Positions 43,824 to 54,107 of a stretch of DNA of 64,000 nt are shown here, in pieces (the first letter of the stretch is position 1; each line of letters opens with the position of its first letter). The notes beneath the pieces were generated by a model. That model was given only the letters and a program-made list of their open reading frames with translations. It was not told the DNA's origin and made no database searches. Where the stretch lies: NCBI RefSeq assembly GCF_025717605.1, contig NZ_JAJIRQ010000002.1, positions 577,884-641,883 on the forward strand. Reading direction: 5' to 3'. The stretch comes from Paucibacter sp. TC2R-5 (GTDB lineage Bacteria; Pseudomonadota; Gammaproteobacteria; Burkholderiales; Burkholderiaceae_C). The position numbers and the translations under genes were made by a program.

Positions 43824-44516
43824 ATGGCAACAATTCTTGTAGTTGACGACGAATTGGGCATCCGTGCCCTGTTGTCAGAAATCCTCAGCGATGAGGGGCA
43901 CACCATTGAAATGGCTGAGAACGCCGCGCAGGCTCGCGCCGTGCGTGAGCGCATGCGGCCCGACTTGGTGTTGCTAGACATCTGGATGCCCGATGTAGAC
44001 GGCATCACCTTGTTGAAGGAATGGGGCGGCGCTGGGCTGCTGACCATGCCCGTCATCATGATGAGCGGCCACGGCACCATCGATACGGCGGTTGAGGCGA
44101 CCAAGTTCGGCGCCATTGCCTTCCTTGAAAAGCCCATCACTTTGCAAAAGCTGTTGCGTGCGGTTGAGCAGTCACTGGTCAAGGTAGCACCACGTCCGGC
44201 GCCGCCGGTCGGTGTGTCAACCTATATGCGCAGCGAAATGCCGCCCCAGTACACCGCGCCCAGCCTGGGTCTGATGCCGCAAATGGCGCAGCCGGCGCTG
44301 GGCCTGGCCTCGGAGCAAAGCTTCGAGCTTGATCGCCCATTGCGCGAGGCGCGTGACGCCTTCGAGAAGAGCTATTTCGAATTCCACCTCTCGAAAGAGA
44401 ACGGCTCGATGACCCGCGTGGCCGAAAAGACGGGCTTGGAGCGCACCCATCTGTATCGAAAACTCAAGCAATTGGGTGTCGATCTGAGTCGAAATAAGCG
44501 CGGCGGCGGAATTTGA
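43824..44516 (+). CDS. ntrX: NtrX-like response regulator lacking the AAA+ domain
   Basis: The 230-residue regulator has an N-terminal receiver domain with phosphoacceptor Asp52 (LLDIWMPDVDG), acidic residues Asp8/Asp9 and Lys102 in EKPIT. The C-terminus is a Fis-type helix-turn-helix (MTRVAEKTGLERTHLYRKLK). The sigma54-interacting AAA+ ATPase domain of classical NtrX (about 450 residues) is absent and replaced by a Pro/Met-rich linker of about 50 residues. It therefore cannot activate sigma54 promoters by ATP hydrolysis and should act as a repressor or sigma70 regulator. It pairs with the upstream kinase. Confidence 0.88.
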   Translation: MATILVVDDELGIRALLSEILSDEGHTIEMAENAAQARAVRERMRPDLVLLDIWMPDVDGITLLKEWGGAGLLTMPVIMMSGHGTIDTAVEATKFGAIAFLEKPITLQKLLRAVEQSLVKVAPRPAPPVGVSTYMRSEMPPQYTAPSLGLMPQMAQPALGLASEQSFELDRPLREARDAFEKSYFEFHLSKENGSMTRVAEKTGLERTHLYRKLKQLGVDLSRNKRGGGI

Positions 44517-44525
44517 TGCTATAGT
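44517..44525 (+). promoter_or_regulatory. Candidate extended -10 promoter of tRNA-Phe
   Basis: TGCTATAGT combines a TGn extension with the -10 hexamer TATAGT and lies 59 bases upstream of the mature tRNA. No good -35 hexamer is seen at the usual distance, so the extended -10 would have to carry it. Confidence 0.4.
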
Positions 44526-44583
44526 CGCGGTCTTCGCTGATTTGAAGCAGGCAGCTGCGACGAAGAAGTGATGAAAAGAATAA

Positions 44584-44659
44584 GGCCTGGTAGCTCAGTC
44601 GGTAGAGCAGCGGATTGAAAATCCGCGTGTCGGTGGTTCGATTCCGCCCCAGGCCACCA
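44584..44659 (+). tRNA. tRNA-Phe(GAA)
   Basis: The 76-base sequence folds as a full cloverleaf: 7-base acceptor stem GGCCTGG/CCAGGCC, D-arm GCTC/GAGC, and anticodon stem GCGGA/TCCGC with loop TTGAAAA (anticodon GAA). The T-arm is GGTGG/CCGCC with loop TTCGATT. CCA is encoded. Its 3' end serves as the attachment site for the downstream integrase-bearing island. Confidence 0.97.
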
Positions 44660-44688
44660 AATAAGCGTCCGCTGAGGTTCGCGGAAGT

Positions 44689-44726
44689 AAAAAAGCCCTT
44701 GAGAATCAACGCTCTAGGGCTTTTTT
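44689..44726. terminator. Terminator after tRNA-Phe (island-side copy)
   Basis: AAAAAAGCCC and GGGCTTTTTT form a strong stem with GAG/CTC continuing inward. The T-run on the plus strand ends the tRNA transcript, and the symmetric A-run lets it work in both directions. It lies just inside the island, so it was probably brought by the element. Confidence 0.8.
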
Positions 44727-44739
44727 GTTGTTCGGCGGT

Positions 44740-44822
44740 GTGCGGGTAAGTGCGGCAGCATCCGGCTTGAAGTGCGGGTAGCTGTACGGGTAGCTGAGTT
44801 ACCCTGTTGGCCTGTTACCCGC
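44740..44822. repeat. GGGTA repeats, candidate integrase arm-type sites (left)
   Basis: GTGCGGGTA occurs at 44740-44748 and 44772-44780. The 12-base units GTGCGGGTAGCT and GTACGGGTAGCT are in direct tandem (44772-44795). Inverted TTACCC copies lie at 44799-44804 and 44815-44822. This clustering between the att core and the int gene is where arm-binding sites of tyrosine integrases usually lie. Confidence 0.55.
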
Positions 44823-44835
44823 AAATAGGCCCGTC

Positions 44836-46128
44836 ATGCCACTTCCCGACGCAGCAGATAGCAACGCCAAGCCCAACAAGAAATCCAGCAAGCTGACCGA
44901 TGCGGCAGTTCGCAACGTCAAGCCCGGCGAAAAAACCCGCAAGCTGACCGATTCTGCGGGGCTCTACCTGGAGGTGCGTCCCGAGGGCGGCAAGTGGTGG
45001 CGCTTGCGCTATCGCTTTGAGGGGCGGGAACAGCTACTTTCGCTTGGCACTTATCCCGGCGTGAGCTTGGGCGAGGCCCGAAGCAAGCGAGACGAAACGC
45101 GCAAGCTCTTGGCTGCTGGTGCTGATCCGTCCTTGGCCCGCAAGGCGGCCAAGTCGGCCAGAGCCGGTGAAGTTGCCAACAACTTCGAGGCCATCGCGCG
45201 GGAGTGGTACGCAGTCAAACGAGACGACTGGTCGGCCAGCTATGGCGAAAAGATCATCGCCCGGTTTGATGCTGACGTGTTCCCATACATCGGGCGACGG
45301 CCAGTGTCAGAGGTGACGCCTCCTGAATTGCTGGACATGCTTCGACGCATCGAACGGCGGGGGGTGATCGAAACGGCCCATCGAGCCCGTGAGAATTGCT
45401 CCCAGGTCTTCCGTTATGCGGTGGCCACCGGCCGGGCCATCAGCGATCCCGCCCGCGATTTGAAGGACGCCTTGAAGACCCCGGTGGTGAAGCACTTCCC
45501 CGCTATCACCAAGCCCGAGCGGCTGGCCGATCTGTTGCGGGCCTGCGCTGGCTATGCGGGAACGCCCGTAGTGCGTACCGCCTTGCTGTTGGCTCCTATG
45601 TTGCTGCTGCGCCCTGGAGAGTTGCGGCACGCGCAGTGGGCCGAGTTCGATCTAGACGCGGCGACGTGGATGGTGCCGGCCGCTCGCATGAAGCGAGAGA
45701 AGGCCGGCAAGCTCCAAGGTGCGCCTCACGTGGTGCCCCTTCCAGCGCAAGCGGTAGAGGCTCTTCGCGAACTGGAGCCGCTGACCGGTCGCAATGCCTA
45801 TGTGTTCCGAGGCGAGCGCCATCATGATCGGCCGATGAGTGAGAACACGGTAAACGCGGCGTTACGGGCGATGGGCTTTGCGGCCGAGGAAGTGACCGGC
45901 CACGGCTTTAGAGCCACGGCCCGAACCATGATGGTGGAGCGGCTGGGCGTGGATGAGTCGGTGATTGAGGCGCAGCTAGCGCACAGTGTCAAGGACAGCC
46001 TAGGCCGGGCCTACAACCGGACGGAGTTCATAGAGCAGCGCCGCGCCATGATGCAAACTTGGGCCGACTACTTGGACAAGCTGCGGCAGGGTGCGGAAGT
46101 CGTGTCCATTGCCGGGCGGGCAGCATGA
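44836..46128 (+). CDS. P4-type tyrosine integrase
   Basis: The 430-residue site-specific recombinase has an N-terminal DUF4102 arm-binding domain (about 15-110), a core-binding domain, and a catalytic domain. The complete active site is visible: Arg259 (LLRPGELRHAQW), His356 and Arg359 (GHGFRATAR), His383 (LAHSVKDSLG) and Tyr393 (RAYNRTEF). It would insert and excise the island at the tRNA-Phe 3' end. It lies immediately downstream of the tRNA in the same direction, the normal layout. Its stop overlaps the next ATG (ATGA). Confidence 0.95.
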   Translation: MPLPDAADSNAKPNKKSSKLTDAAVRNVKPGEKTRKLTDSAGLYLEVRPEGGKWWRLRYRFEGREQLLSLGTYPGVSLGEARSKRDETRKLLAAGADPSLARKAAKSARAGEVANNFEAIAREWYAVKRDDWSASYGEKIIARFDADVFPYIGRRPVSEVTPPELLDMLRRIERRGVIETAHRARENCSQVFRYAVATGRAISDPARDLKDALKTPVVKHFPAITKPERLADLLRACAGYAGTPVVRTALLLAPMLLLRPGELRHAQWAEFDLDAATWMVPAARMKREKAGKLQGAPHVVPLPAQAVEALRELEPLTGRNAYVFRGERHHDRPMSENTVNAALRAMGFAAEEVTGHGFRATARTMMVERLGVDESVIEAQLAHSVKDSLGRAYNRTEFIEQRRAMMQTWADYLDKLRQGAEVVSIAGRAA

Positions 46129-46715
46129 AAAACAAAAAGAAGCCAAAGCGGCGTGTTGCCCCTGTGCTGAATACGCGTGACGGAGAAGAACTAGGCATAC
46201 GTCTGGAATACGGAATCGCCTGTCTTGAGCGCGGCCTACCCTTCAGTCCGTTCCCCACTGATCAAGAAGACCAAATCGAAGCTGTTCGAGAATTAGTCTT
46301 GCGTCTGCTCCGTTCAGGGATGGCAAGTGCGGCCCTTCAAGCAAGATTGGCCGACTTGATCGAGCAGACCCCCGCCCCGGATTTGCCTGCGACTCTTTCT
46401 TTTCGATTGCCGAAACGGCGCAAGGACTTCGCGAAAAGGTTGGCAACGTTCGAAGCTTACTTTTATTGCTATGAAAAGACGGGCGATATGAAACGTTCAG
46501 TGATCGCGGCGTATGAAAAGCACTTCGGTGCCGGATCGTTTCAGGCCGACAGTCGCATTGAGGATTCCGAGAACGATAAGTGGAGTTACAAAGACATTGC
46601 TTGCACGACCGCATCTAAAAGAACGCTGCACACGATCAAGCCGCTGCTCAAGGGTTCGCCTCATCCATTACCTCGGCCTGAACGTCTATTGCGACTGCTA
46701 GGCTTTGCTGTTTAA
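46125..46715 (+). CDS. Hypothetical island protein
   Basis: The 196-residue basic protein has an unusually Lys/Arg-rich first 15 residues (MKNKKKPKRRVAP), no signal peptide and no recognised domain. Helical segments with a RLPKRRKDFAKRL patch suggest nucleic-acid contact, but that is speculation. Its ATG overlaps the integrase stop, so it is translationally coupled to int. This could make it an excision or replication accessory factor. Composition is less GC-rich than the host backbone. I do not recognise it. Confidence 0.6.
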   Translation: MKNKKKPKRRVAPVLNTRDGEELGIRLEYGIACLERGLPFSPFPTDQEDQIEAVRELVLRLLRSGMASAALQARLADLIEQTPAPDLPATLSFRLPKRRKDFAKRLATFEAYFYCYEKTGDMKRSVIAAYEKHFGAGSFQADSRIEDSENDKWSYKDIACTTASKRTLHTIKPLLKGSPHPLPRPERLLRLLGFAV

Positions 46716-46805
46716 GAGCGATTAGACGGCCGCAATCGCTCTCAAGCAGTTCAAGACCTATTCGGCGACAGTGGGACTTCAGCAACCACTAAAGGACCCG
46801 AAAAA

Positions 46806-47000
46806 ATGAACGAAGCAGAAACGCTTCTCAGAATCACTGAGGTGATGGCAAGGATCCGGATCGGAAAAACGACGCTTTATGCGCTCCAGCGTGAGGGACG
46901 TTTTCCAAGAAGTTTGGTTTTATCGCGACGCTGCGTGGCATGGCGAGCAAGTGAAGTTCAAGCCTGGATTGCATCCCGTGTTCATAGCAGCAATGAATGA
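46806..47000 (+). CDS. AlpA family regulatory protein/excisionase
   Basis: The 64-residue MerR-like winged-helix protein has the AlpA pattern: LLRITEVMARIRIGKTTLYA (recognition helix), FPRSLVLSRRCVAWRASEV, then WIASR. In P4-like satellites and islands, AlpA activates integrase expression or assists excision. It lies 677 bases downstream of the integrase. The size and motifs are typical. The start at 46806 begins the conserved domain. Confidence 0.85.
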   Translation: MNEAETLLRITEVMARIRIGKTTLYALQREGRFPRSLVLSRRCVAWRASEVQAWIASRVHSSNE

Positions 47001-47010
47001 GGGCACAGAG

Positions 47011-47313
47011 ATGAGCATAAACGCACCCTCTACCAGTCGTGCTGGCGCTGGTGTCCAGCAGCCAGATTTGGCCATCACCGACGCCAACGCACTCGCCAAT
47101 CTTCTTGAGGCCGCGCAACATTTCGACTTTCGACATATGGGCGGCGTCACGTTTTACACGGGGGTGGACGGTCTTGGGCCGTTCTTGGCGACGCTCGAAA
47201 ATGACGGCCATCAAGCCGCAGTCTTCCGCCGACACAGCTTTGACGACTTCGAGCGAGTAACTTCCGCAGACGGTCAGCAGCGCAAAAATTGGGAAGGCCA
47301 CGGCCATGACTGA
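47011..47313 (+). CDS. Hypothetical island protein
   Basis: The 100-residue soluble protein has no recognised domain. It starts MSINAPSTSRAGAG and has a compact middle part (TDANALANLLEAAQHFDFR) and an acidic/aromatic end. The ATG at 47011 follows GAGGG and starts 10 bases after AlpA. A longer in-frame version overlapping AlpA was rejected. Its end overlaps the next gene by eight bases, consistent with an operon. The function is unknown. Confidence 0.55.
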   Translation: MSINAPSTSRAGAGVQQPDLAITDANALANLLEAAQHFDFRHMGGVTFYTGVDGLGPFLATLENDGHQAAVFRRHSFDDFERVTSADGQQRKNWEGHGHD

Positions 47314-47593
47314 GACAAGCCGAACAAAAGTGAAGCGCGACCATATGAAGTGGATTGAGCAATACACCCAGCAAGCCCGGGATCGTGTGCAGGGCCTTCG
47401 TGATGACCCAAAGACCGACCCAAAGCACCAGGAGGGGGTAGAGGCCCTGCTGAAGATCATTGACCCCGATTTCTTCGCTGTACCGGCCGAATCGCCGCTA
47501 GAACGTGAAGACCCGGGGTACGTAATCGAAGGCGACTACCAATACCCGCCCTTCATCCCAGATGACGAAGTATTAGAGGACGAACGCGGCTAG
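47306..47593 (+). CDS. Hypothetical island protein
   Basis: The 95-residue protein has a basic N-terminal helix (KVKRDHMKWIEQYTQQARDR) and an acidic C-terminal half (EDPGYVIEGDYQYPPFIPDD). No known domain is seen. It overlaps the preceding gene by eight bases, so it is probably co-translated. The charge split resembles small phage/satellite adaptor or inhibitor proteins, but this is only a resemblance. The function is unknown. Confidence 0.55.
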   Translation: MTETSRTKVKRDHMKWIEQYTQQARDRVQGLRDDPKTDPKHQEGVEALLKIIDPDFFAVPAESPLEREDPGYVIEGDYQYPPFIPDDEVLEDERG

Positions 47594-47669
47594 TACCGCT
47601 CAAGTACCAGAGTATTTGAGCGGCATATTGCAACAGCGCCAGCAGGCGAACCACAACCAAAAGACCCAA

Positions 47670-47948
47670 ATGCAAGTTCACCAAATCGACAAACAGCAAC
47701 TCTCCGACACGCTCCAACAGTCGGAAATTCTTTCCCAGCTCGAAGGCATCGGCTCCACTACCTACTTACTGCGCTATCAAGGGCAAGATATTTTGATTCA
47801 CCATGAGCACGGTGAGGAGCAGGCTGGTTTGATCTATCAAGACAGCAGCCAACTTCCCGAGGGTGGCTCCCTGCATGATCAGGCCAGAGCGGCAAGAGCG
47901 GCAAGAGCGGCCATGCGTGAAGACCGTGTTGTCGTCTGCGCACCCTGA
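47670..47948 (+). CDS. Hypothetical Gln-rich small island protein
   Basis: The 92-residue protein starts MQVHQIDKQQLSDTL and has a short beta-like centre (STTYLLRYQGQDILIHH). The C-terminus contains an Ala/Arg repeat (RAARAARAAMR) encoded by a 9-base tandem repeat. An upstream TTG at 47616 could extend it by 18 codons. It overlaps the start of the next gene by 74 bases in another frame, so one of the two starts may be wrong. Function unknown and coding status only moderate. Confidence 0.45.
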   Translation: MQVHQIDKQQLSDTLQQSEILSQLEGIGSTTYLLRYQGQDILIHHEHGEEQAGLIYQDSSQLPEGGSLHDQARAARAARAAMREDRVVVCAP

Positions 47949-48759
47949 CAAGACGGCCGCCACAGAAGGCCCTGCCAGCCCGGCAGGGCCTGACGCGCCA
48001 AAGGTGCTATCAGTCCCTCAGTTGAAAGCGATACGGGGCAGCAGCAGCGCCAGTGCTACGGCCGACTTCAAGCGCCGCACCGACACACTTGCGACGGATG
48101 CAACACAAACCCTAGTGGTGAGGGTAGAGACGGCAGCAGACCCGCTGGTGCTATGGGCACTACACCTTGAGCTTGATAAACGCGACGTGCCGCCGTGCGT
48201 TCGCTGGCCAGCCAATGAAGGCGATGGCGGGCAACTTGAATTCATCACGTTCTTGGCCGATCTACTTTGGATATGCAAACGCAACCCCGGACACATTACC
48301 AACTTCAGGGGCTGGCGGGGCGCCTTCAAGCATTCACCCGACAGCGAAGCATGGCATGCCATCGCCCATCGCCAATACATATGGCTCATAAAGCGCGGCA
48401 GCCTGTCGCATCAATGTGCAAAAGGGCTGGCGCTGGTTGACGGTCAGCGGCTGGATTTGATGGTTCTGCAAACCAACTCAATGCAGGCCGAGCGCCGGAA
48501 GCTTCAGACAAGAGAGTTTGAAGTCATTCGGGTGGCATTGCAGAGGCATGCCCTTCTGAAGCCAGACAGGTCCAAGCGCATGACACCAACGAAAAGCGCC
48601 GAACGCCGCGCCAAGGTGTGGCGCGTGTACTTGCTTTCAGGGCGCCGCCAAACCGCTATGGCGGCGAATTGGCGACTCCTGACCGGCGAGACTGTGAGTA
48701 GGCAGGCGCTCATGAAGACGGTGGTAACTGTCGCCAGCGTCTTGCGCGTCAAAGTGTGA
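47875..48759 (+). CDS. Hypothetical island protein, 294 residues
   Basis: This protein has a disordered, Arg/Glu-rich first 40 residues, then a folded middle part (VRVETAADPLVLWALHLELDK, LEFITFLADLLWICKRNP). The basic C-terminus (AERRAKVWRVYLLSGRRQTA) could contain a helix-turn-helix: it resembles an Mu/Tn-style DNA-binding region only loosely. No catalytic motif is visible. GAGGGTGG lies eight bases before the ATG at 47875; a GTG at 47863 is the alternative. It is the last gene before the 0.7 kb gene-free block. I do not recognise it. Confidence 0.55.
   Translation: MIRPERQERQERPCVKTVLSSAHPDKTAATEGPASPAGPDAPKVLSVPQLKAIRGSSSASATADFKRRTDTLATDATQTLVVRVETAADPLVLWALHLELDKRDVPPCVRWPANEGDGGQLEFITFLADLLWICKRNPGHITNFRGWRGAFKHSPDSEAWHAIAHRQYIWLIKRGSLSHQCAKGLALVDGQRLDLMVLQTNSMQAERRKLQTREFEVIRVALQRHALLKPDRSKRMTPTKSAERRAKVWRVYLLSGRRQTAMAANWRLLTGETVSRQALMKTVVTVASVLRVKV
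47883..47911. repeat. Three-copy 9-base tandem repeat inside overlapping genes
   Basis: The unit AGAGCGGCA is repeated three times (the last copy partial). It is read as Arg-Ala-Ala repeats in one gene and as Glu-Arg-Gln repeats in the overlapping gene. Because the unit is a multiple of three, copy-number change would keep both frames. Confidence 0.6.
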
Positions 48760-48801
48760 GCCCCGGCACGAACTGTGTCTTCCTGCTCTATGGATGGTGC
48801 C

Positions 48802-48820
48802 TGCTGACCATAGGTCAGCA
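48802..48820. promoter_or_regulatory. Perfect 8-base inverted repeat
   Basis: TGCTGACC and GGTCAGCA are separated by ATA. There is no T-run, so an operator or origin element is more likely than a terminator. Confidence 0.45.
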
Positions 48821-48825
48821 TGAAC

Positions 48826-48921
48826 ATTGCAACCTCTTGGATCTAGCAGCCATGCGGGGTTTAGAGGTTGCAATTTTCAGCAAGCGATCAGGTTGCAAGA
48901 CAGTTGACCAATTGCAACCTC
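48826..48921. repeat. Iteron-like AGGTTGCAA repeats
   Basis: ATTGCAACCTC occurs at 48826-48836 and 48911-48921. Its exact reverse complement is at 48864-48874, and a shorter inverted copy AGGTTGCAA is at 48890-48898. The shared 9-base core appears four times in 96 bases. Confidence 0.65.
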
Positions 48922-49059
48922 ACCGCGTCACATTGAAGGGGCCGATCTGACCCCCTTAATTTGACCACCGGCAAACCCCGCACCTTGCACCCCTTAGCCA
49001 AATATTCATAACTCTCAAGCCCTTCGATAGTAATTTTTTGGGCAATCCAGCGAAACGAC

Positions 49060-49077
49060 CTTATAGCGCCCTATAAG
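49060..49077. repeat. AT-rich hairpin
   Basis: CTTATAG and CTATAAG are perfect 7-base arms with the loop CGCC. ACTTTT follows on the plus strand, which could make a weak terminator for the upstream unit. Confidence 0.4.
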
Positions 49078-49445
49078 ACTTTTGACCCCGGCATGCCCAT
49101 CGTGCTGTCTTAAATGACTATTCAGCCGAAAATTGCCAAACACTATGGGCAGACTTGCAGTTTGGCCCCGAAGCCACGGCACTGTATGGAAAAGCGGCTC
49201 TATGGGGGGGCTTTTTTAGGATCGTTTCGCGCAACAGAATGTCAGTGGATATTCAGCGTAACCGCATGAAAATGTCTCGAAAATTGGGTGAAGACTACAC
49301 AACTTGTGCAGAGATGCGCTGTTTTTCGTCTTCCCCGATACCTTGTTATGAAAGGGCTTCGCGGTCATGTACGATCCAGAACAAATTTGGGGGCCATTGC
49401 AGCCCTACTGCGGGAACAGCCGGCAGATAACGGGAGAGTACAAGA

Positions 49446-50819
49446 ATGGCGAGTAAGCAGGGGAAAAGCGTCTCTGTTGTGGCAGGGAGTGGGTATGCAC
49501 TTGTTTCGTCAAACTTTGTGCATCTTGATGGTGAGAACCCCCGGCATAAATCGCTAGAGCGGGATGCTGAGATGATTGCAGCCCTTTGCGACGCGCAGCT
49601 CGTCGCACTGGCTACAGATATTGCCAAGCTAGGCGCCCTCAGTCCGCTTGAAGTTTTGGGGGTTGTCGCGTTGGAGGGCCAACCGGGGCACTTTGTCGCC
49701 GTAGAAGGGAATCGGCGAACTTGCTCGGTTTTGCTGCTGTCAGATCCGAACCGCGCGCCAACCCCGGAGTTTCGCGAGGTCTTTAAGAAGTTGGCCCGCG
49801 CGGCAAACATCCCAAGGGAGCTTCAAGTTTATGTTTTTCCCAATCGTCAAGCGGCGCAGCCGTGGATCGATCGCCGTCACCTAGGAGGGCAAGGGGGCGT
49901 TGGCACTCGTGAATGGGACAACACCGCTAAGGCCCGTGTTGCTGCTCGCTCATCGGCAAACACAACTGCGAAAGCCGACGTGCTTGCCTTTGCAGTTGTT
50001 GAGCGTCTCTTTGCTCTTGGGCTGCTAAGCCCTGAACAGCATGGACAGGTGAGTCTCACGACTCTATCTCGCTACTTAAACAATGCGAGCCGGCGCGCCA
50101 TCCTTGGGCTTAAGGGTCTTGATAGCGAAAACCAGCTTGTCTACACCCATGACGAAGCCGAGGTTGATTCCGTGCTGCGCAAGTTGGTTTTGGACAGCCT
50201 GCCACGCAGCGACGACAAAGTTCCCTTGGTCAATTCGCGCTCAAAGGCTGCAGACAGTGATAACTACGTGCAGGGCCTTGCCGCGCAGGGCTTGGTGCCA
50301 TCTACCCGTCTACCTGAACCCGCTCCAGCGAAAGTCCCGGCTGCCTCTCCATTAGCGACCAAAACCGCCCCAAAGGCGCGTAGTTCGATAAACCAAGCCA
50401 ATCGAAACAAGCTAATGTTGCCGAGTTTTACCGTACAGAGTACTGACAGCGCACTGATGCGGCTTAGATCGGAGATGCTAGCGTTGCAGATTGAAGGTTA
50501 TGAATATGCAGCGAATTACTTATTGCGTGCGTTCATTGAGCGCGTATTGATTCTCTATTTTCGCCGCCAAGATCCCCAACGCAAGTACGTTTCCGACTTG
50601 GAACTTTGCCGCCTCTGCGCAGCCGACGCTTTACAAGCAAAGGCGCCTCGGAAAGTTCAGCAGGTGCTGGATCAAGCGATCGCTCCCAGTCCGGTGGCTC
50701 ATAGTCTTCACACGCTTGGAACTGCGGTGCATTTGGGCACGGTGCCGGTACGTCGGCAACTCGTTGCAGTTTTTGATACTTGGGAGAGTGCTTTGAGGTA
50801 CATGCTTGACGCACACTGA
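49446..50819 (+). CDS. ParB-like nuclease-fold protein of the island
   Basis: The 457-residue protein has an N-terminal ParB/Srx-type domain. GENPRHKS at about residues 29-36 and AVEGNRRTCSVLLL, with the EGNRR motif at residues 87-91, match the nucleotide-binding G-x-RR box of ParB-like proteins. A helical middle region (about 150-260) and a Pro/Ala-rich linker (about 290-320) follow. The C-terminal helical domain (ALMRLRSEMLALQIEGYEYA, then LLRAFIERVLILYF) I do not recognise. There is no partner ParA, so plasmid partition is unlikely. GGAGAG lies nine bases before the ATG. It sits 66 bases upstream of a Dam-like methyltransferase, suggesting a joint DNA-targeting role. Confidence 0.75.
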   Translation: MASKQGKSVSVVAGSGYALVSSNFVHLDGENPRHKSLERDAEMIAALCDAQLVALATDIAKLGALSPLEVLGVVALEGQPGHFVAVEGNRRTCSVLLLSDPNRAPTPEFREVFKKLARAANIPRELQVYVFPNRQAAQPWIDRRHLGGQGGVGTREWDNTAKARVAARSSANTTAKADVLAFAVVERLFALGLLSPEQHGQVSLTTLSRYLNNASRRAILGLKGLDSENQLVYTHDEAEVDSVLRKLVLDSLPRSDDKVPLVNSRSKAADSDNYVQGLAAQGLVPSTRLPEPAPAKVPAASPLATKTAPKARSSINQANRNKLMLPSFTVQSTDSALMRLRSEMLALQIEGYEYAANYLLRAFIERVLILYFRRQDPQRKYVSDLELCRLCAADALQAKAPRKVQQVLDQAIAPSPVAHSLHTLGTAVHLGTVPVRRQLVAVFDTWESALRYMLDAH

Positions 50820-50885
50820 TACGAATACCAGCTACATCTCTCTGATGTCGTTAGGCCTAAAGCGACCGCGTTACATTGATTCGAC

Positions 50886-51743
50886 ATGCCGATAACCGAC
50901 TCCCCGCTCCGCTACCCTGGCGGTAAGACCCAGCTAGCCCCATTTGTCCTTGACTTGGCTCGCGCAAATGGAGTTTTGCGAGGTGTGTACGCTGAACCAT
51001 TCGCAGGAGGGGCCGGCATAGCATGGCGGCTTCTACTGAACGGTGATATGACGGAAGTTTGGCTCAACGATATTGACCCGGCAATCTCAGCTTTCTGGCA
51101 AGCTGTTGTACGCGAGCCTGACCCACTCTGCGAGCGCATAGTTAAGGTCGAAATCACCATGGAGGAATGGACGCGACAGCGTGTAATCCTTCTTGATAAG
51201 CACGCGAGTATTCAAGACAAGGCGTTTGCCACTTTATTTTTGAACCGCACAAATAGGTCGGGAATTTTGAAGGGCGGGGTCATAGGCGGGAAGGATCAAA
51301 CTGGCAACTACAAGCTGGATTGTCGATTCAATCGTGATGAGTTGATTCAAAAAATACGCCGAATTCATGCGTATCGGGATGTGATTCAACTAAGTCAACT
51401 TGACGCAGAGGAATGCCTGCGCGATTGGAACCACAGGCTTCCGAAACGTGCCTTGTTGAATATTGACCCACCGTATTTCGCACAGGGGCGCGACCTGTAC
51501 CTGAGTTTTTACGAGCCAGACGACCATGCTCGGCTGGCCAAACTCGTCCGAAAGTTGAAGTGCCCATGGATGCTGACCTACGACGACGTTCCAGAGATTG
51601 AACGGCTGTATTCAGGTATGCCAACTTATCGCAAAGGCTTGACGTACTACGCCCAAGTTAAGCGCAAAGCTTCAGAATTGTTAGTGCTTTCAAGGGGGCT
51701 GGTCGCCCCAGTTGAACTTAACGAATGCGAAGCGAGAGCGTAA
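50886..51743 (+). CDS. D12-class DNA adenine N6-methyltransferase (Dam-like)
   Basis: The 285-residue enzyme transfers methyl from SAM to adenine N6. It has all D12/Dam motifs: motif X SPLRYPGGKTQ at residues 6-16, motif I AEPFAGGAG near residue 36, and the catalytic motif IV NIDPPYF with DPPY at residues 195-198. The length is normal for Dam-type enzymes. The target-recognition part (about 100-180) cannot be read to a sequence, although GATC is common for this class. No restriction endonuclease is adjacent. Its only close partner is the ParB-like gene, so it may protect self DNA in a defence module or be an orphan phage-type methylase. Confidence 0.92.
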   Translation: MPITDSPLRYPGGKTQLAPFVLDLARANGVLRGVYAEPFAGGAGIAWRLLLNGDMTEVWLNDIDPAISAFWQAVVREPDPLCERIVKVEITMEEWTRQRVILLDKHASIQDKAFATLFLNRTNRSGILKGGVIGGKDQTGNYKLDCRFNRDELIQKIRRIHAYRDVIQLSQLDAEECLRDWNHRLPKRALLNIDPPYFAQGRDLYLSFYEPDDHARLAKLVRKLKCPWMLTYDDVPEIERLYSGMPTYRKGLTYYAQVKRKASELLVLSRGLVAPVELNECEARA

Positions 51744-51843
51744 ATCCAAAGCGAGGACGCTACTTAGGCATTTTCTGGAGGGTGGATTCGGGTTTTTTTG
51801 CAAAAATATTGCGGCCGAGCACTCACAGGGGTATTCACCCCAA

Positions 51844-51865
51844 TTTGAGGGTAACTTTGAGGGTA
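51844..51865. repeat. TTTGAGGGTA tandem repeat, candidate arm sites (right)
   Basis: TTTGAGGGTA is repeated at 51844-51853 and 51856-51865 with a 12-base period, the same period and GGGTA core as the repeats beside the integrase gene. It lies about 55 bases inside the putative right attachment site. Confidence 0.5.
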
Positions 51866-51919
51866 GTTTTTTTTTTATGAATGCTGGATGCTATTGTTCA
51901 TCGATGTTGTCAGTCATCT

Positions 51920-51941
51920 TTCGATAGAGCCCCAGCCACCA
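51920..51941 (+). repeat. Degenerate tRNA 3' end, putative attR
   Basis: TTCGAT, four diverged bases, then CCCCAG and CCACCA reproduce the T-loop, acceptor strand and CCA end of tRNA-Phe, with four substitutions and one deletion. The following AATAA and the CCCTTG-AATCAACG pattern also recur after the intact tRNA. Confidence 0.55.
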
Positions 51942-51986
51942 GAATAAATCCCTTGCTAATCAACGAGTTAGCGAAGCGGAACACAG

Positions 51987-52015
51987 AAAGCGGCCCCTCA
52001 AAAGGTCGCTTTTTT
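51987..52015 (+). terminator. Terminator downstream of the tRNA-like remnant
   Basis: AAAGCGGCC and GGTCGCTTT pair through one G-U around an eight-base loop, and three further T complete a run of six. No gene upstream needs it except a former tRNA, so it is likely the native tRNA-Phe terminator displaced by the island. Confidence 0.7.
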
Positions 52016-52289
52016 GCTTTCCGGGGATGATTTGTGTCACTTTTTGTGGCGCTGAGGTTGGAGAGGCGCTGCGGCTCACTGCGCTTGATTGCGCAGGACT
52101 GCGGACCAGCAAGGGTTGCAGCTTCTAGGCTCGACCTCTGTCTGGGACCGTGATTGGCTCGCCGCAACGCTTCTTTGTTCGATCCTTGGCTGGTGAATTT
52201 CCGTTTTTCGGCGCAATAGGTGCAGAAAACGGATAAAAGTCTTGGCGGAGTTTTCTACACGCATCTTGTTCAACTACTGGATGTGTGTC

Positions 52290-52640
52290 ATGAATAAACC
52301 TTACAAGCGTGGAAAAACTTGGTCGATCCGATCCCGAGCCAAAGGCGTCGATGTAAACCTCAAAGGCTACAGTACCGCTAAGGAAGCCGAAGGTGCGATG
52401 CGAAAGCATCTTGACAAGCTCGACGACCTCGGCAGGCCGCAGAAGCGCGGACCTACCCTCACCACAATGGCCCAAGGGCTGCAGGACTACGGCCTGGAGA
52501 AGCTTCGCCTTCTCAAGGGAGCGCCGCAAGAGGCCAACCGCATCAACAAATACTTGCGTGCTGCGGGACTTGAAACCCTGGTGCTCGAAAAGGTCCTGCC
52601 AGAAGCCGCACGTGACGCTGACGGTGGCGACACCCCAGTG
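52290..52640 (+). pseudogene. N-terminal fragment of a second tyrosine integrase
   Basis: The frame starting at ATG 52290 encodes MNKPYKRGKTWSIRSRAKG and then STAKEAEGAMRKHLDKLDDL. This is a strand-rich arm-type domain like those opening phage integrases, followed by part of a core-binding domain (about to residue 105). After about 52610 the resemblance stops, and the frame continues antisense through the MocR-type gene, so no catalytic domain exists. It lies in the same direction as the tRNA remnant, as an integrase beside its att site would. Deletion of the rest of an older element is the likely cause. Confidence 0.6.
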
Positions 52641-52748
52641 AGCCTGGGCTCAAATGGGGACTCACGGAGGATGATTGATCGGCCTGAGCCGAGCAGGCAC
52701 ATTCCGCCCGAAAATACGGGCGCGAGCGGGAATCGTGCAGTTCAGCCC

Positions 52749-54107
52749 TTACACCCCATACGGATCAATCTCCCCAATCACCTCAGCCACTTTGGCCAGC
52801 GCGCTGTGCAGCCTAGGCAGCTCCACCGAGCCCAAGGCCAGGCGGATCGCATGCGGGACCTGCGCCGAGGTGGCATAAGGCTCGGCGGTGGAGACCGAGA
52901 TCCTTTCGCGCAGCAAGGCCATCGCGACTTGCTCGGCGCGTATGTCTTCCCCCAGCGGCAGCCACAGGAAGTAGGAGGCTGGGTGGCAGACTCGCTTGAG
53001 TTTGCCCAAGAGCCGGGCGGCGACTTGCTGGCGCGCGCGCGCATCCTGGCGCTTGGCGGCCTCCAGGCGGGCGACGGTGCCGTCGGCCAGCCAGCCGCAG
53101 GCGATGGCGGTCATCAGGCCCGGCGTGTTCCAGGTCGTGGCCCTGATCGCGCGCTCGAGCTGGGCCACCGAGGCGGGCGGTGCGACAACATACCCGACCC
53201 GCAGCCCCGTGGCCACGCTCTTGGAGAAGCCGGACACGTAGACCGTTATGTCCGGTGCCAAGGCCGCCAAGGGCGCGGGCGCGTCTTCGATCAAGAAAGC
53301 ATAGGCTGCGTCTTCGATGATGAGCAGGCCGTGCCGGCGCGCTACCGCCACCAAGTCCTGCCGGCGGCTGCTGCTCATCACCCAGCCCAAGGGGTTGTGC
53401 AGCGTCGGCATGGTGTAGATCGCCTTGACCTTGCGGCGCTTGCACAGCGCGTCCAGCGCATCCGGGTCGGGGCCTTGACCCGCCGCCGGCAGCGCCACCA
53501 ACTCCAGGCGATGCGCGTCGGCCAGCAGCTTGAAGCCGGGATAACTCAAAGCATCAACGGCGACCACATCGCCGGCTTGCAGCAAGGCCATCACGGTGAT
53601 TGCCAGGCCATGCTGCGCCCCATCGACCAGCAGCACCTGTTCGCCCGCCGCGTTCAGGCCGCTGGCGGCAAGATGCCGCGCCACCGCTGCGCGCTCATGC
53701 GGGCGCCCGCCATGCGGTTGGTAGCGCAGCAAAGCCTCCAGGTCGCCGCCCGAGGCGATTTCGCGCAAGGAGGCCCGCAGCAATTCGGCCTGACCGGGCA
53801 GTGACGGGTAGTTGAAGCTCAAGTCCACCATGTCGGTGGCCGCCGCGTGCTGGTAGGCCTGTGGATCGATCAGACCATGGCCGCGCGGCAGCGCGGTTTC
53901 GCGCACAAAAGTTCCGCGGCCGGTTTCCCCGCTGACCAGACCCATCGCCCCTAACTCCGCATACACGCGGCTTGCGGTCATCAAGGCCAACCCTTCGCTG
54001 GCGGCGAGCCGCCGGTGCGTGGGCAAACGCGTGCCGGGCGGCATGCGGCCGGCGCGAATATCGGCGGCGAAGCGATCGACCACCTGCTTGTACCGGGCTT
54101 GAACCAT
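52749..54107 (-). CDS. MocR-type GntR/aminotransferase transcription regulator
   Basis: The 452-residue regulator joins an N-terminal GntR winged helix (RYKQVVDRFAADIRAGRMPPG, LMTASRVYAELGAMGLV) to a fold-type I PLP aminotransferase domain. The PLP-binding Lys is in YVSGFSKSVATGLRVGY near residue 285. The Asp and Asn pairing sites lie in TMPTLHNPLGWV and IIEDAAYAFL. MocR proteins usually regulate a divergent gene using PLP or an amine/amino acid as effector. Here the divergent gene is an EamA exporter 110 bases away. The ATG at 54107 places the HTH at the N-terminus. Confidence 0.88.
   Translation of the reverse strand: MVQARYKQVVDRFAADIRAGRMPPGTRLPTHRRLAASEGLALMTASRVYAELGAMGLVSGETGRGTFVRETALPRGHGLIDPQAYQHAAATDMVDLSFNYPSLPGQAELLRASLREIASGGDLEALLRYQPHGGRPHERAAVARHLAASGLNAAGEQVLLVDGAQHGLAITVMALLQAGDVVAVDALSYPGFKLLADAHRLELVALPAAGQGPDPDALDALCKRRKVKAIYTMPTLHNPLGWVMSSSRRQDLVAVARRHGLLIIEDAAYAFLIEDAPAPLAALAPDITVYVSGFSKSVATGLRVGYVVAPPASVAQLERAIRATTWNTPGLMTAIACGWLADGTVARLEAAKRQDARARQQVAARLLGKLKRVCHPASYFLWLPLGEDIRAEQVAMALLRERISVSTAEPYATSAQVPHAIRLALGSVELPRLHSALAKVAEVIGEIDPYGV

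Follow-up and report, generated by a model that had tools for sequence, protein, structure and literature searches.

We analysed a 64,000-nucleotide (nt) stretch of the Paucibacter sp. TC2R-5 genome (contig NZ_JAJIRQ010000002.1, positions 577,884 to 641,883; hereafter the window), in which a gene for a ParB-like protein (A) and a gene for a D12-class adenine methyltransferase (B) form a cassette on an island at a tRNA-Phe gene. An earlier note on this DNA had described a gene for a ParB/Srx-type protein with an EGNRR box beside an intact D12 methyltransferase gene, which we confirm as two intact same-strand genes at 49446-50819 and 50886-51743. The note had also put the pair forward as a candidate undescribed module; the cassette instead belongs to PD-Lambda-5, a defence system in the PADLOC collection whose 2022 publication included phage assays (PMC9519451).

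The cassette and its membership in PD-Lambda-5

The cassette comprises the following features:

49446-50819, + strand: PD-Lambda-5_A, 457 amino acids (PADLOC PDLC04013, 3.6e-139)
49704-49718, + strand: EGNRR box, residues 87-91 of A, counterpart of the ParB P-motif (from conservation in 53 sequences)
50388-50816, + strand: probable HEPN-like C-terminal domain of A, with conserved E343, R361, E365 and H429
50886-51743, + strand: PD-Lambda-5_B, predicted D12 adenine-N6 methyltransferase, 285 amino acids (PADLOC PDLC04018, 1.2e-114; Pfam PF02086, 5.6e-15)

Both genes are intact, lie on the + strand and are separated by 66 nt. The assignment to PD-Lambda-5 is firm because both proteins match their PADLOC models nearly full-length: A at 462.8 bits (residues 18-456 against profile positions 6-438 of 440) and B at 380.5 bits (residues 1-279 against positions 1-280 of 291). 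To judge by its sequence, the cassette is an unremarkable example of this known system and appears to be intact. PD-Lambda-5 came out of a functional selection in Escherichia coli followed by phage assays (Vassallo et al., 2022; PMC9519451), and these assays, together with the PADLOC matches, rule out an undescribed system and remove a mistaken claim of novelty. The tested system and the cassette have the same two genes, near full-length profile matches and a location on a mobile element; they differ in that the element here is a tRNA-Phe integrative island whereas the E. coli original sits in a P2-like prophage (PMC10482375), the likeness being judged by PADLOC profiles. Nor is the architecture the new arrangement that had been supposed, as PD-Lambda-5 was already described and a ParB-HEPN fusion, Saro_3948, was tabulated in a 2013 survey of HEPN domains (PMC3710099). 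A DNA search for the tested PD-Lambda-5 in E. coli returned 85 genomes, none covering 80% of the query; the 20 of these 85 matches listed each cover 9% of it, all of them DNA adenine methylase.

The motif DPPY is kept in B in 53/53 sequences (the window and 52 loci), and the motif set of a D12 methylase is intact in B. It belongs to the D12 class by PF02086 and scores 47.7 bits against TIGR00571 (Dam), below the curated cut-off of 114.85, which rules out a housekeeping Dam. A falls in no Pfam or NCBIfam family and found no match in a sequence search of the PDB. Among the nine island open reading frames (ORFs) scanned with Pfam there is neither a ParA family, on which ground we reject a partition system, nor an endonuclease family, in agreement with the earlier reading that ParA and restriction endonuclease genes are missing; the window also holds no relative of the PD-(D/E)XK-like family found in the sister cassettes described below.

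The two genes belong together well beyond this genome. We scanned one genome from each of 84,980 species for relatives of A, and the best 80 of 139 relatives fall at 78 distinct loci (L numbers below), 53 with a long A (an open frame of at least 430 codons) and 25 under this cut. B lies within 200 nt of A in 52 of the 53 long-A loci, downstream on the same strand in 50 and downstream on the other strand in 2; the exception, L063, clusters with short sister proteins and has a C5 methylase nearby. Below the cut B is within 200 nt in 1/25 loci: four end at a contig edge, L035 has a split A frame with B after the second piece, and in L076 a D12 gene lies 1,011 nt off. On viral contigs B adjoins A in 16/17 A loci, the exception (L150) being a short sister. 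The distance matrices of A and B co-vary (r 0.874 over the window and 52 loci; highest of 2000 permutations 0.24), which together with the 52/53 adjacency rules out chance neighbours. The earlier note had named rare adjacency of the homologues as a refutation; on adjacency its view of a defence-type pair is upheld, and its claim of novelty fails because the system already has a name.

Predicted domain anatomy of the ParB-like protein

In an AlphaFold2 model of A (mean predicted local distance difference test 87.4, predicted template modelling score 0.51), compared with VIA-align, a ParB/Srx-like N-domain (~15-153) is followed by a KorB/Noc-like middle (to ~282) and a HEPN-like C-domain (~331-457). 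KorB aligns to the model over residues 16-282, and the model supports a ParB/Srx fold for the N-domain; within the EGNRR box G88, N89, R90 and R91 are present in 53/53 sequences and E87 in 51/53. The C-terminal domain had been called unrecognised, and as regards Pfam and NCBIfam families it is, but the comparison on the model returned a HEPN fold, which the domain probably has. The domain is probably RNase-like and would be able to shut an infected cell down.

The histidine of the HEPN motif is found in 48/48 relatives, in all of which R361 and H429 are invariant, whereas an arginine at the spacing allowed by the HEPN motif Rx4-6H occurs in 2/48 (L031 and L050) and is absent from the window protein. 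Foldseek with the C-domain alone returned nothing with E below 1, and a PDB search with a C-domain profile gave 4 unrelated matches (best E 0.18). Pfam scans of the 48 C-domains touched 32 families, the commonest in 3 members; Csx1_HEPN (E 0.011) and DUF4145 (E 0.018) were matched in one member each and, as 48 scans were run, are treated as chance. Saro_3948 likewise joins a ParB domain and HEPN in a single protein, a likeness of architecture rather than established homology; the survey's table lists it under Abi2/Swt1 as mostly active, which we read as having Rx4-6H, in contrast to the 2/48 found here (PMC3710099).

Sister cassettes, proposed partner exchange and proposed mechanism

Most short A-like proteins, whose loci lie among L053-L086, align to A in its N-terminal part only. 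A conserved gene, C, follows the short A in 18/21 loci, and a later profile adds C in L061; we read the C proteins as PD-(D/E)XK-like from a gD.G.D ... qC/K core in a 17-protein alignment, and Pfam gave a weak Mrr_cat match in L080 alone among the C proteins scanned. A cluster of C5 methylases is present in 14/21 short-A loci (five members checked with Pfam). Phage Wphi carries a set of this sister type (L089, 96-3266), made up of gp98 (short ParB-like), gp96 (PD-(D/E)XK-like) and mth (C5 methylase). The N-domain of gp98 is ParB-like as in A, matching PADLOC PD-Lambda-5_A at 3.2e-24 over ~150 residues; the Wphi set differs in that gp98 is shorter and matched in its N-part only, mth is a C5 methylase, and gp96 is a separate protein, PD-(D/E)XK-like by our reading of the alignment and without Pfam support. 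The PADLOC PD-Lambda-5_A models match short sisters too, and a Vibrio phage record labelled PD-Lambda-5_A shows no methylase in the stretch displayed (loci L089 and L092 are concerned); PD-Lambda-5 calls made from A alone may be misassigned.

Seen from the methylase, the partners vary again. In a B-centred viral set (best 80 of 547 relatives), 38 loci score above 150 bits and 36 above 330 bits (L151-L186). These 36 strong loci have an A-like protein in 23 cases (short and accompanied by C in L181 and L182), only an ATPase neighbour in 12 (L152, L154-L159, L161, L165, L169, L177 and L178) and a contig end in 1 (L176); L180 has both an A-like protein and the ATPase, and the weaker loci L187 and L197 have neither. 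Near-duplicate loci, such as L157 and L158 with identical scores, mean that the viral counts are not independent. In our reading, from Walker/ABC motifs and an E...DxD pattern, the ATPase is OLD-type ABC-TOPRIM-like. The order OLD-A-B on one strand is found in L009, L019 and L180, each with Walker A and the E...DxD pattern, and an A-B-OLD order in L028 is doubtful, Walker A and E patterns not having been found there. Three loci, L034 (5965-10381), L046 (3766-8222) and L052 (5899-10280), hold A-B as well as a short A and C, possibly a restriction plus abortive-infection arrangement. Across all 175 loci, 43 have the D12 methylase alone, a count that includes remoter D12 relatives of the viral set; in this tally "short" means no HEPN profile match (wrong or doubtful for L035, L060 and L146) and the "OLD" label was checked individually at L009, L019, L028 and L180. 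Two E. coli records from the DNA search have a DNA adenine methylase beside an ATPase, and in L087 and L088, too, the D12 methylase family lies near an OLD-like ABC ATPase.

These neighbourhoods suggest that the partners of the D12 methylase family can be exchanged among ParB-HEPN proteins, OLD-like ATPases and short ParB with PD-(D/E)XK-like proteins, sometimes combined; no publication on such exchange was found among openly licensed PMC papers. They point to a family built of modules, with one kind of methylase, or one kind of ParB-like sensor, joined to different effectors. Given this swapping, the simplest reading has the methylase marking self DNA and its partner reacting to DNA without the mark.

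For the cassette itself we favour, at a probability of roughly 0.6, a PD-Lambda-5 defence on a tRNA-Phe integrative island in which B marks self, A senses unmarked DNA and the HEPN domain attacks RNA, so that the infection is aborted. Membership apart, this mechanism is inferred. B would methylate adenines at a fixed site and thereby mark the host genome; A would scan DNA as a ParB-like sensor, probably nucleotide-binding, and stay silent on marked DNA; unmarked phage DNA would free its HEPN domain to attack host or phage RNA. The logic would be that of restriction-modification (R-M), except that the output attacks RNA instead of cutting DNA. The sensor would be the ParB-like domain, which ParB-HEPN proteins share with the forms that pair ParB and a PD-(D/E)XK-like protein, and HEPN or PD-(D/E)XK would be the output. 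One argument for a working adenine methylase leans on the specificity of Mrr. The host used for PD-Lambda-5 in the 2022 study lacks the mrr region, which fits such a methylase (PMC9519451).

PD-Lambda-5 would in this way gain a testable anatomy of ParB-like sensor, HEPN-like effector and D12 self-marker and, if the reading is true, ParB-like switches that respond to methylation would be a general defence trigger beyond classical restriction enzymes. We hold with less than even confidence the wider proposition that one D12 family is the common self-marker for interchangeable outputs, the ParB-like domain being a nucleotide-gated methylation sensor wired either to DNA cutting or to abortive infection through RNA, with a non-canonical active site (R361, E365 and H429) in the HEPN domain. 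PrrC carries an ABC ATPase domain, whereas A has a ParB-like domain, and the window contains no DNA-cutting R-M complex. In its mode of action, the pairing of PrrC and an R-M system is nonetheless alike, since it couples methylation-based discrimination to an RNA-attacking HEPN effector (PMC3710099). A search of the main text of openly licensed PMC papers found no mechanism of PD-Lambda-5, nor any paper on PDC-M38.

The best placed alternative, though an unlikely one, is a toxin-antitoxin pair, in which B would restrain A by contact or by operator methylation and phage interference with B would free A, the methylation of phage DNA not being sensed. The tight pairing and distance co-variation of A and B would suit it, as would the frequency of HEPN domains among toxins (PMC3710099) and the description of KorB, in its entry title, as a repressor; the same ParB-like domain, however, is also met beside PD-(D/E)XK-like proteins together with a C5 or D12 methylase, and the 12/36 loci in which the B family adjoins the OLD-like ATPase fit DNA marking better than the one-to-one contact of an antidote. 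Lower again we place the possibility that A is itself a DNA nuclease, the pair being an unusual two-gene restriction-modification system in which HEPN serves dimerisation or RNA binding. PMC12839542 cites nicking by ParB/Srx proteins, and the canonical HEPN arginine is mostly absent, yet the invariance of R361 and H429 seems beyond the needs of a scaffold, and in the sister loci a separate nuclease-like protein adjoins the ParB-like one, as though ParB did not cut on its own; HEPN is the likelier effector of A. Of the ParB-like nuclease or CTP switch that the earlier note had proposed, the model bears out the ParB-like fold; nuclease activity and nucleotide use are conjectural. Upkeep or regulation of the island, with A partition-like or regulatory and B an orphan methylase shielding the island from host restriction, would accord with the ParB-like fold and the island-edge position, but is very improbable given the lack of ParA among the nine ORFs scanned, the joint occurrence of A and B across many bacterial groups and viral contigs, and the family's measured anti-phage activity (PMC9519451).

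The tRNA-Phe island

The cassette had been taken for the cargo of an island, which its surroundings bear out:

44584-44659, + strand: tRNA-Phe (GAA), island insertion site (ARAGORN; Rfam tRNA, 71.3 bits)
44836-46128, + strand: tyrosine integrase (Pfam Phage_int_M 1.5e-36, Arm-DNA-bind_3 3.5e-26, Phage_integrase 3.4e-15)
46806-47000, + strand: AlpA-type regulator (Pfam Phage_AlpA 2.1e-14)
51920-51947, + strand: candidate right attachment site, resembling the 3' end of tRNA-Phe as an imperfect copy (gapped alignment, score 29)
52663-52672, no strand: restart of the host backbone common to relatives (homology from 52663 in related genome G005, 52672 in G004)

At the left border homology to related genomes ends at 44670 (G004), 44661 (G009) and 44747 (G005). 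The candidate right attachment site, 176 nt past B, is identical to the tRNA 3' end in 24/29 alignment columns, and as 1/100 shuffles of the region reached its score the copy alone is modest evidence. The segment 51920-52020 also matches G004 at the end of its tRNA-Phe and just beyond (71%, E 1.9e-6), so that 51920-51947 is likely a right attachment site that has decayed. When the tRNA 3' end was searched for without gaps, allowing up to 3 mismatches, the sole match was the tRNA itself, and no tRNA-end pair is among the 20 of 25 repeat families listed by a repeat finder.

Between this site and the common backbone, 51948-52662 is mostly unmatched in G004 and G005; an impression of an integrase remnant in the ORF starting at 52290 was not confirmed, with no Pfam match. 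Within the island a 298-amino-acid ORF (47863-48759) matches nothing in Pfam, PADLOC, NCBIfam or PHROG. Rfam found nothing besides the tRNA in 44400-53000, and a sigma-70 promoter scan of 48700-52300 found 0 (shuffles, mean 2.2). Across 46001-52000 the three 2-kb bins have a GC content of 0.52-0.55, lower than the 0.61-0.64 of the two bins flanking them on either side. In G004 45 bases of the tRNA end recur exactly downstream of that genome's tRNA-Phe (G004:C1:111614-111658), so the tRNA-Phe gene looks like a repeated insertion site.
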